Shown in pieces: positions 44,644 through 48,054 of a DNA stretch of 64,000 bases. A program made the translations under genes and the position numbers. The notes beneath the pieces were generated by a model. It was not told the DNA's origin, searched no databases, and was given only the letters and a program-made list of their open reading frames with translations. The stretch is from Planctomycetaceae bacterium (lineage in GTDB: Bacteria > Planctomycetota > Planctomycetia > Pirellulales > Pirellulaceae): NCBI GenBank assembly GCA_002726515.1, contig PBTE01000083.1, positions 1 through 64,000 of the forward strand. Direction: 5' to 3'. The first letter of the stretch is position 1. Each line of letters starts with the position of its first letter.

Positions 44644-45759
44644 CTAACCTACTGGCTCATTCCTGCCATAGGCACCCAAAACTTCCAGGCGAACCACTTT
44701 TTTGTCAAGTGACGTCAGCGCCCGTTTGACCTTGGTGTCTTGCGGATGGCCTTCGAGTTCCACAAAAAAAAGATACTCGTTTTGCGAACCCCGCAGAGGA
44801 AACGATTCAATCCACGTCAAATTGAGGGAGCTTCTTTTGAATACCGACATGGCATTGGCCAGGGCACCAGGTTGATGAGCAAGTCCAAACATGAGTGCTG
44901 TTTTGTCGCTGCCCGTCCGAGAGGCGATTTCGGGACCAATGACAGCAAAACGAGTGATGTTGTCCTGGTTATCTTCAATCGCCGCCGCAATGACTTCCAG
45001 TTCGTAATGCATACCGGCCTGACGACTGGCGATTGCCGCAACCCCTTTTTTCTTAGCTGCCAACTGTGCAGCAACTGCAGTGCTGCTGACTTCCTTCAAC
45101 TCGGCACCCGGGACGTGTTTTGCCAACCAGTTGCGACACTGGGATAACGCCTGCGGCTTGCTGTAAACTTCGCGAATTTCCGATCGCTGACATCGTCCCA
45201 GCAAATGGTGGTGAATCCGCAATGGTACCTCGCCACACACTTTGACAGATACGCGAGCAAACATATCGAGCGTGTCGACGATGCGTCCGTCAGTCGAATT
45301 TTCCAAGGGTACCAAGCCATAATCGACATCGCCGTTCCGTGCTTCCTTGAAGACGGCGGCGATTGTCTCGACGGGAATCAGATCGGCGCTCTCACCGAAT
45401 CGTTCCGAAGCCGCCAAGTGGCTGAAGCTGTAGGGTGGCCCCAAATAGGCAACCTTCACGGGAGCGATCAACTGGCGGGACCCGCTCAACAGCTCTCGAA
45501 ATACCGCTCGTAACGTTGTTGCGTCCACGAGCCCGCCCTGGGAGACCGATTTTCCCAGGGCTCGACTGACAACTTTGACGTCGCAAAAGTCAGCTGCGCT
45601 TTCCACCGAGAATCTTGCCAGCTTCTTCACCAAGCCGGCCCGCTCATTGACCAGCTTGACCAGTTCCTGATCCACGCGTTTGATTTTTGCGCGCAATTGA
45701 CCAGCGGTCGCCTTACCAGCTCGAGCTGAAGACTTCTTCTTGGTGGGTTGTTTGGCCAC
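44644..45759 (-). CDS. pheA: Bifunctional chorismate mutase/prephenate dehydratase (P-protein)
   Basis: Protein of 371 aa. The first 90 residues contain a chorismate-mutase-like helix (LRAKIKRVDQELVKLVNERAGLVKKL). Prephenate dehydratase follows with VAYLGPPYSFSHLAA, PLENSTDGRIVDTLDM and the TRF motif in DNQDNITRFAVIG. A C-terminal ACT domain with ESFPLRGSQNEYLFFVE binds phenylalanine for feedback. The protein converts chorismate to phenylpyruvate. The N-terminus begins with a basic Lys/Ala-rich tail. A promoter-like pair is seen upstream. It is divergent from dnaK. Confidence 0.93.
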   Translation of the reverse strand: MAKQPTKKKSSARAGKATAGQLRAKIKRVDQELVKLVNERAGLVKKLARFSVESAADFCDVKVVSRALGKSVSQGGLVDATTLRAVFRELLSGSRQLIAPVKVAYLGPPYSFSHLAASERFGESADLIPVETIAAVFKEARNGDVDYGLVPLENSTDGRIVDTLDMFARVSVKVCGEVPLRIHHHLLGRCQRSEIREVYSKPQALSQCRNWLAKHVPGAELKEVSSTAVAAQLAAKKKGVAAIASRQAGMHYELEVIAAAIEDNQDNITRFAVIGPEIASRTGSDKTALMFGLAHQPGALANAMSVFKRSSLNLTWIESFPLRGSQNEYLFFVELEGHPQDTKVKRALTSLDKKVVRLEVLGAYGRNEPVG

Positions 45760-45829
45760 GACGGCTAGGACGAGGTGAAAATTGAATCTGATTCCCTTCT
45801 GTCAAAATGGCAGAAGGTGCGAATGCACG

Positions 45830-45865: not shown

Positions 45866-45989
45866 CCTAAGTAATTTATGGCAAAACACTTAGGCCGATG
45901 ATTCGTACGAATCGGAAAGACTGGCATAGGCTTTGCTGTATAGGAACCTCGAGGTTTCTGTCCGCCGTTTTGCGGTTGCGCTAAACGGC
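45866..45989 (+). promoter_or_regulatory. Cluster of inverted repeats upstream of dnaK
   Basis: Four inverted repeats within 124 bases. They are CCTAAGT/ACTTAGG (45866-45872 and 45888-45894), the perfect 14-base palindrome GATTCGTACGAATC (45900-45913), the 12-base palindrome AACCTCGAGGTT (45945-45956, extendable with wobble), and GCCGTTT/AAACGGC (45964-45970 and 45983-45989). None matches CIRCE or HAIR heat-shock operators as known to me. They lie 122-245 bases before the dnaK ATG, in the divergent region with pheA, so some may be operators or leader hairpins. Confidence 0.45.
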
Positions 45990-46110
45990 ACCAGTATTTG
46001 AACTTAGAACAAAGCAGTAGATAGCACTTCGTTGTCCGCAACGCGTTTGGGCCACTCACCGGACTGAACTGGCAGGCAAAAAGCGCGGATCGTCATTCAA
46101 GGAGAAAGCG

Positions 46111-48054
46111 ATGGCAGAGGGCGAAAAGATCATTGGTATCGACTTAGGCACTACCAACTCGGTGGTATCGGTAATGGAAGGGGATGAGCCGAAAATCATT
46201 CCCAACCCCGAAGGAAACCGTATTACTCCGAGCGTCGTTGCCTTCAATGACAAGGGTGAAACACTGGTCGGTGAACCTGCTCGCCGGCAAGCCGTTACCA
46301 ACCCTCAAAGAACGATTTATTCGATCAAGCGTTTCATGGGCCGCCGACACAACGAGGTAGAATCTGAAGAGAAGATGGTCCCGTACGAAGTGATGGGTGG
46401 CAGCGACGAATACGTCAAGGTGAAAGTTGACGGTCAGGAACACACTCCCCAGGAAATTTCAGCAAAGATTTTGCGAAAATTGAAGGAATCCGCGGAATCC
46501 TACCTGGGCCATAAAGTCAACAAGGCCGTGATCACCGTCCCCGCCTATTTTAACGATTCACAGCGGCAAGCGACCAAAGATGCCGGGCAAATTGCGGGAA
46601 TCGAGGTGGCTCGTATTATCAACGAACCAACTGCCGCTGCTTTGAGCTACGGATTGGATAAGAAAACTCAAGAGAAAATCGTTGTCTTCGACTTGGGAGG
46701 AGGAACCTTTGACGTCTCGATTCTCGAAGTCGCTGAAACGGAAGGCAACGACGACAATATCAGGGTATTCGAGGTGATCAGTACCAGTGGCGACACCCAC
46801 CTGGGTGGCGACGATCTTGATGAAATCTTAATCAACCACGTTGCGAACGAATTCAAACGCGAACAGGGCATCGATCTTCGTGATGACATGATGGCTTTGC
46901 AGCGGTTGCAGGAAGCATGCGAAAAGGCCAAAAAAGAATTAAGCTCGACAGCTTCCACGGATATTAATTTGCCGTTCATTACCGCCGATGCTTCCGGGCC
47001 TAAGCATCTCCAGCTAAGCATTTCTCGCTCAAAATTTGAGGAGTTGATCGATCCGCTGATTGAACGCTGTCGTGGCCCGGTGATGCAGGCCCTCAAGGAT
47101 GCCAAGTTGCAGCCTAGTGAAATCGACGAAATTGTGTTGGTCGGTGGTTCGACACGCGTACCAAAAGTTCAGCAACTGGTGAAAGAAGTCTTTGGAAAAG
47201 ACCCTCACCGGGGTGTCAATCCGGATGAAGTCGTAGCTGCTGGTGCGGCCATTCAAGGAAGTGTTCTGGCAGGCGACCGCAAGGATGTGTTGTTGCTGGA
47301 TGTGACGCCCTTGTCCCTGGGCATCGAAACACTGGGTGGAGTCTTCACAAAGCTCGTCGAACGAAACACCACGGTTCCAACAGAGCGAAAACAGGTTTTT
47401 AGTACGGCCGAAGACAACCAAACAGCTGTTACTGTGCGTGTCTTCCAGGGAGAGCGCGAAATGGCTTCCGACAACCGTTTGCTCGGTCAGTTCAACTTGG
47501 AGGGTATTCCTTCAGCGCCGCGTGGAATGCCGCAGATTGAAGTCAAATTTGACCTTGATCAAAATGGCATTCTCAATGTTTCTGCGAAAGAGCTGGGAAC
47601 GGGTAAAGAACAATCCGTTCGCATCGAACAGTCTTCCGGGCTTTCGGACGACGAGATCAGTCACATGCGGAGTGACGCGGAGGAACATGCCGCAGGCGAT
47701 AAACAACGACGCGAACTGGCCGAATCACGTAACCAGGCGGACCAGATGTGCTTCCAAATCGAAAAAATGATGAAGGAGCACGAGGATAAATTAAGTGAGG
47801 ACGACAAAAAACCGTTGGAAGCCGCCATTGCCAAGGCACACGAAGTGGCCAAAAGTGAAGATGTTCAGGCCATAAAAAGCGCCATTGAAGAACTGGAACA
47901 GGCATCTCACGCCTTTAGCAAAACATTGTACGAAAGTGCGCAGACAGCTGGAGAGCCGGCAGACACAAATGTCGAGTCTGCTGACCCGACAGATGGTGAG
48001 GCAAGCACAGAGGACGACGCGATCGACGCCGAGTTCGAGGTCAAGGATTCGTAA
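46111..48054 (+). CDS. dnaK: Chaperone protein DnaK (HSP70)
   Basis: Protein of 647 aa, complete. Nucleotide-binding domain with [49 protein letters not shown] and [15 protein letters not shown]; substrate-binding domain with [17 protein letters not shown]; acidic C-terminal tail. The chaperone folds proteins with DnaJ and GrpE, neither of which is adjacent. ATG 46111 has AAGGAG seven bases before it. clpB follows after 257 bases, so a joint heat-shock response is likely. Confidence 0.98.

Follow-up and report, generated by a model that had tools for sequence, protein, structure and literature searches.

A Predicted Sigma-54 Promoter with Two Conserved Upstream Elements Precedes dnaK in Pirellulaceae

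Introduction

Which DNA elements control dnaK in a bacterium of the family Pirellulaceae, and do the inverted repeats packed in front of the gene belong to them? The question is raised by a 64-kb stretch of planctomycete DNA, analysed here as a whole and referred to as the window. In it, a pheA-like gene (prephenate dehydratase/chorismate mutase; Pfam PF00800 and PF01817) at positions 44644–45759 of the minus strand diverges from dnaK at 46111–48054 of the plus strand, which encodes 647 aa, is recognized by Pfam as HSP70 (E = 5.7e-256), and is proposed to be the regulated gene; the gene next after dnaK in the Pfam gene context codes for ClpB. The original prediction for this locus held that four inverted repeats at 45866–45989 could form either a novel heat-shock operator array or an RNA thermometer-like leader.

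What is known of this class of organisms gives the question its frame. In Rhodopirellula baltica, the available text of one study reports that dnaK, GroEL, and Hsp20 are induced by heat (PMC2754498). For the Planctomycetia, an in silico study describes, in the text available, an enrichment of sigma-54 promoters at the GroEL, IbpA, GroES, GrpE, DnaJ, DnaK, and CsrA groups (PMC12316311).

Results

For comparison we collected 144 dnaK loci from relatives, 141 of which had a located start; 124 unique upstream regions with at least 100 bases remained, the window itself being one of them. Because these regions stem from related sequences, the counts overstate their independence. Discovery and scoring of the element named E2 below relied on 85 non-redundant dnaK upstream regions, while the pattern searches (E1-gap-sigma-54 and E2-gap-sigma-54) covered 241 genomes of the family as well as controls. 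The motif matrices derive from the dnaK set; the held-out test and the pattern searches are the only results independent of it.

All four predicted repeats were found between the pheA-like gene and dnaK: a 29-bp dyad CCTAAGT-N15-ACTTAGG at 45866–45894 (CCTAAGTAATTTATGGCAAAACACTTAGG in full), a perfect 14-bp palindrome at 45900–45913 (GATTCGTACGAATC), a perfect 12-bp palindrome at 45945–45956 (AACCTCGAGGTT), none of these three assigned to a strand, and a hairpin GCCGTTT-N12-AAACGGC at 45964–45989 of the plus strand, within the predicted dnaK leader (45948–46110, plus strand). The original prediction does not include a fifth repeat, equal in grade, CCTTCTG-N9-CAGAAGG at 45795–45817, which coincides with the E1 site described below. 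Taken singly, none of the repeats stands out: the window contains 25 perfect palindromes of at least 12 bases, where a first-order random model yields about 18, 6 palindromes of 14 bp, and 37 inverted repeats with arms of at least 7 and loops of 3–15 bases. The density of the cluster is unusual under random placement, with p = 0.0026 for two palindromes and two repeats falling inside 124 bp somewhere in 64 kb, a value that is post hoc because its thresholds were taken from the observation itself.

We then looked at what relatives retain of this region. As a whole, the intergenic block showed no nucleotide conservation: among the family matches listed, all start at query position 334 or beyond, that is, from just 5′ of the ribosome site and the coding sequence onward. 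Among the 124 dnaK regions, that of the window is the only one with the 14-bp palindrome, the 12-bp palindrome, or the leader hairpin, and palindromes of at least 12 bases around the promoter were present in 3 of 96 regions compared with 2.6 in shuffles, which is chance level. These three repeats look like chance palindromes, the 14-bp one being probably incidental. Of the four, it is the first repeat that is conserved in relatives; its exact letters are found in the window alone among the 124 regions, whereas its motif and place are conserved. The four repeats are not one array. RNA thermometers such as ROSE or FourU were rejected for the leader, whose predicted fold does not stand out from shuffles (z = −0.13) and for which Rfam returned no match near the gathering score and nothing above chance. 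A joint role of all four repeats as operator array or thermometer leader, for which a real cluster and one repeat conserved in form can be cited, is very improbable given that three of them are missing from all of the other 123 dnaK regions and that fold and Rfam results are negative. A species-specific repressor acting on the 14-bp palindrome or on the 12-bp palindrome, which covers the predicted transcription start, would occupy typical repressor positions just upstream of the −24 box or over the start, and 14-bp palindromes are uncommon in the window; neither sequence, however, recurs in the other 123 dnaK regions or at the groEL locus of the same genome, and we consider such a repressor improbable.

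The established heat-shock operators were not encountered either. CIRCE (TTAGCACTC-N9-GAGTGCTAA) gave 0 matches at up to 3 mismatches, and its repressor HrcA was absent from 60 of 60 relatives in searches that do return matches in control genomes, so that control by CIRCE/HrcA was rejected; HAIR (CTTGAGT-N7-ACTCAAG) was found in 0 of the 124 dnaK upstream regions, and control by HAIR/HspR was rejected as well. The view that this is heat-shock control DNA lacking both operators has thus been borne out.

Instead, the repeats before dnaK surround a predicted sigma-54 promoter (CTGGCATAGGCTTTGCT) at 45921–45937 of the plus strand, which sits between the 14-bp and the 12-bp palindrome. Its GG at 45923–45924 (−24) and GC at 45935–45936 (−12) lie ten bases apart in the context TGGCAY-N5-TTGC and would place the transcription start of dnaK at about 45948. 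The sigma-54 core TGGC-N7-TTGC is present on the coding strand of 96 of the 124 dnaK upstream regions, on the opposite strand of 3, and in about 1.25 shuffled regions. A sigma-54 matrix, trained on 93 sites from the same dnaK set, finds a match within 350 bases upstream in 120/124 regions versus 3/124 on the other strand, and the box of the window scores 23.1, where the 99% threshold from shuffles is 6.7.

De novo discovery of palindromic motifs in the 85 regions yielded two elements upstream of this box, which we call E1 and E2. E1 is represented in the window by the extended dyad CCTTCTGTCAAAATGGCAGAAGG at 45795–45817 (no strand assigned) with the core TGTCA-N3-TGGCA at 45800–45812; its consensus is CTGYCA-N3-TGGCAG, and the copy in the window, its centre 116 bp before the −24 box, falls outside the interval 45866–45989 of the original prediction. 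Of the 124 dnaK upstream regions, 55 contain the strict core TGYCA-N2..4-TGGCA, as opposed to 1 of 124 in one shuffle, and 69 do not; the spacer is three bases long in 61 of 62 sites. A relaxed E1 matrix matches 119 of 120 dnaK regions; since the matrix was derived from these very data with no refit on shuffled sequences, we place no weight on this count. The distance from E1 to the −24 box is periodic at 10.5–11 bp (R = 0.64–0.65, n = 38 non-redundant regions). Seven dnaK loci carry two E1 sites (L005, L007, L014, L023, L066, L072, L085), in all seven exactly 40 bp apart, an arrangement that suggests paired activator dimers.

Which genes does E1 accompany? The E1-gap-sigma-54 pattern has matches in 77 of the 241 family genomes and one match in the controls overall. 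Fifty promoters with the pattern were examined, 30 picked automatically and 20 by hand, with representatives confirmed by Pfam: 46 precede dnaK, groEL, groES, or Hsp20, one (L208) precedes none of these, and three (L169, L207, L218) had no gene assigned at first, L207 later being labelled dnaK by motif. In the genome of the window itself, the pattern has exactly two matches, dnaK and groEL, the latter identified as Cpn60 by Pfam. Because searches with E1 and sigma-54 return almost exclusively chaperone promoters, E1 is best read as the putative enhancer (upstream-activating sequence, UAS) of a chaperone-specific sigma-54 activator. As part of the best overall explanation, it is likely that E1 and sigma-54 define a small chaperone regulon of dnaK, groEL, groES, and Hsp20, a proposal drawn from sequence, in which E1 would carry the heat signal. 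Alternatively, heat induction of dnaK could start from another promoter, for example one read by an ECF or RpoH-like sigma factor, with sigma-54 serving a different signal. For R. baltica, the available text indeed states that the rpoH and rpoN (RB6491) genes are themselves not heat-regulated, and its authors proposed a different cascade (PMC2754498). Against such a promoter stand the near-exclusive selection of chaperone genes by E1 and sigma-54 and a sigma-70-type scan that found no promoter on the dnaK strand and a sole sigma-70-like site on the opposite strand, near chance; we judge this alternative unlikely.

The second motif, E2, has the form CGTAAnTC-N13-GAnTTACG, and the first of the clustered repeats (45866–45894) is an instance of it; this copy is centred 42 bp before the −24 box, with the 14-bp palindrome lying between it and the promoter. 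Of the 85 regions, 52 score above the 95% shuffle level with the E2 matrix and 33 stay below the threshold. In these 52 regions the centre of E2 lies 38–44 bp from the −24 box in 43 cases (42 bp in 21), 28–32 bp in 8, and 51 bp in 1. The same two positions were recovered among 40 held-out non-dnaK promoters, chosen by E1 and sigma-54 only and without regard to E2: E2 exceeded the 99% null level in 22 of them, 21 of which had an allowed spacing (28–33 bp in 15, 39–45 bp in 6), the remaining one lying elsewhere. The E2-gap-sigma-54 pattern has matches in 80 of 241 genomes and in 0 controls; although spacers of 16–32 were allowed, the 97 sites listed have spacers of 16–20 (41 sites) or 27–31 (56 sites) and none of 21–26. 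The two E2 spacings are one helical turn apart.

Twelve dnaK promoters, from the metagenome-derived genomes that come late in the set of loci, have a sigma-54 box but no E2 above threshold (L098, L099, L101, L102, L105, L106, L110, L116, L122, L126, L130, L131). Because many such metagenome-derived promoters do not reach the threshold, E2 looks restricted to certain lineages.

In contrast to E1, E2 is not confined to chaperones: it also precedes genes for PII (L224, L246), CsrA (L265), and, judged by eye, an ECF sigma factor (L245), L224 and L265 having been checked by Pfam. Among promoters with E2 and sigma-54 whose downstream gene could be named or ruled out as a chaperone, with labels assigned partly by eye, relaxed E1 is present in 16 of 21 chaperone promoters versus 1 of 14 others. 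Since E2 also stands before genes unrelated to heat shock, it is not a heat-shock operator; of the proposed novel operator array, what survives is a first repeat conserved as a motif, the other three being found in no relative. As part of the same overall explanation, E2 probably belongs to the sigma-54 promoters of this family in general.

The genome of the window contains 43 sigma-54-like sites (control 18); of those without E2, most are probably chance matches. Five have an E2 score of at least 8 at an allowed spacing: dnaK, groEL, C189:47231, L346, and L348. A further site, L329, has E2 at 52 bp. The gene for glutamine synthetase (L323, Pfam) in this genome is preceded by a sigma-54-like box, and an E2-like site lies 45 bp from that box. 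A similar small protein (about 70–100 aa, by eye) follows an E2 and sigma-54 promoter in L221, L223, L232, and L348; the copy in L348, which belongs to the genome of the window, has no Pfam match.

The form of E2 bears a relation to the binding site of integration host factor (IHF). Counted from the dyad of the lambda H′ complex, AA occupies +4/+5 and TTG +10 to +12, and E2 carries these steps at the same positions on both sides. The IHF core AANNNNTTR is present in both E2 arms of the window; the TT/AA steps of E2 are 9 bp apart with TTR on both flanks, and the matrix has A at 0.96–0.98 in the outer AA (the TT of TTR) and T at 0.69 and 0.88 in the inner TT (the AA of the core). The genome encodes three HU/IHF proteins, one IHF-beta-like and the other two divergent and HU-like. 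The segment RIELRNFG of the IHF-like protein aligns with RIEIRGFG of IHF-beta, and it is presumably the E and R of this segment that read TTR. The protein was found in 56 of 60 relatives, with the segment kept in 30 of 30 loci fetched. The E. coli consensus is WATCARNNNNTTR, with two bends 9 bp apart, as given in the available text of two papers (PMC8421141, PMC9519438). Because its WATC part is missing in the window, where E2 reads GGCA, E2 is not classed as an IHF site of the E. coli type. IHF is commonly located between enhancer and sigma-54 promoter, according to the text available of a further paper (PMC7962754). By form and place, we propose that E2 is a symmetrical IHF-type bend site.

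A different reading accepts the sigma-54 promoter and E1 and assigns E2, without bending, to a second regulator that would recognize its sequence as an operator, be it to activate or to repress. The conserved outer CG of E2, in a clean dyad, is a feature that IHF sites do not have, and strong E2 sites (L058, L039) are present even in two genomes, G030 and G031, that gave no match to the IHF-like protein. On the other hand, a dedicated operator would have to serve genes as unrelated as those for chaperones, PII, CsrA, and an ECF sigma factor, and it fits less well with a fixed spacing that allows a one-turn alternative and with AA and TTR positions that match IHF geometry. We hold this operator reading to be rather doubtful and prefer the bend site, although that E2 is bent, and by which proteins E1 and E2 would be bound, we infer from sequence.

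As candidates for the sigma-54 activator, the genome of the window offers 11 strong matches to PF00158 (at least 218 bits). None of the 11 genes is near dnaK or groEL in the loci examined, and the sole findings in scans of their upstream DNA were a weak E2-like match at L256 and a sigma-54-like site at L252. In three of the activators (L251, L254, L257), the usual GAFTGA loop reads GAFTDA or GAYTDA, an alteration that may change the contact with sigma-54. In three others (L253, L255, L256), an N-terminal segment resembling a forkhead-associated (FHA) domain was recognized by eye, hinting at control by Ser/Thr kinases.

Discussion

The sequences themselves show which parts are conserved, where these lie, how they are phased, and in front of which genes they stand; the most convincing explanation is a sigma-54 promoter of dnaK with three working parts, the −24/−12 box, E1, and E2, which we regard as the likely organization of this region. 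Sigma-54 RNA polymerase would bind the −24/−12 box and wait there in the closed state. Under protein-folding stress, E1, which lies some 140 bp before the predicted start, would be occupied by a putative activator, an ATPase of the bacterial enhancer-binding kind. E2, midway between E1 and the box, would be the site of a DNA-bending protein from the IHF/HU family. The bend at E2 would then fold the DNA such that the activator meets the polymerase on the correct helical face.

This arrangement resembles proteobacterial sigma-54 promoters with enhancer and IHF site (nif, glnA, Pseudomonas Pu) in its −24/−12 box, the phased enhancer dyad upstream, and an IHF-like site between them; the nif and toluene promoter cases are named in the available text of PMC7962754. 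It differs in that chaperone genes are concerned here and in that E2 is symmetrical, has no WATC half, and stands at either of two fixed spacings. With the HrcA/CIRCE, HspR/HAIR, and RpoH systems it shares the control of dnaK and groEL through upstream DNA; unlike in the first two, the dnaK region has neither CIRCE nor HAIR, and HrcA occurs in 0 of 60 relatives. An earlier analysis of Pirellula, by Studholme and Dixon (2004), is cited in PMC12316311. In the literature searched by title and the start of the abstract, subscription papers being mostly outside this search, we recognized no published description of E1 or E2. With the Planctomycetia sigma-54 regulon, as far as the text available describes it, the present findings have in common the sigma-54 promoters at chaperone and CsrA groups (PMC12316311). 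Sigma-54 control of planctomycete chaperones is thus already predicted there; its main text contains no match to the terms IHF, integration host factor, UAS, upstream-activating, or enhancer sequence, and what is added here are E1, E2, their phasing, and the specificity of E1 for chaperones.

A more specific version can be formulated, to which we give somewhat less than an even chance: heat shock in Pirellulaceae may operate via a dedicated sigma-54 activator that binds CTGYCA-N3-TGGCAG, together with a homodimeric protein of the IHF-beta type that would loop the DNA at YAA-N4-TT-N7-AA-N4-TTR, the palindromic target of an IHF with sequence specificity, placed at one of two helically related spacings in the sigma-54 promoters of the family. 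If true, a symmetrical IHF-type site would mean that one IHF subunit can be sequence-specific without its partner. For the switching-on of chaperones in planctomycetes, the analysis provides named DNA elements in named genes and 11 candidate activators.
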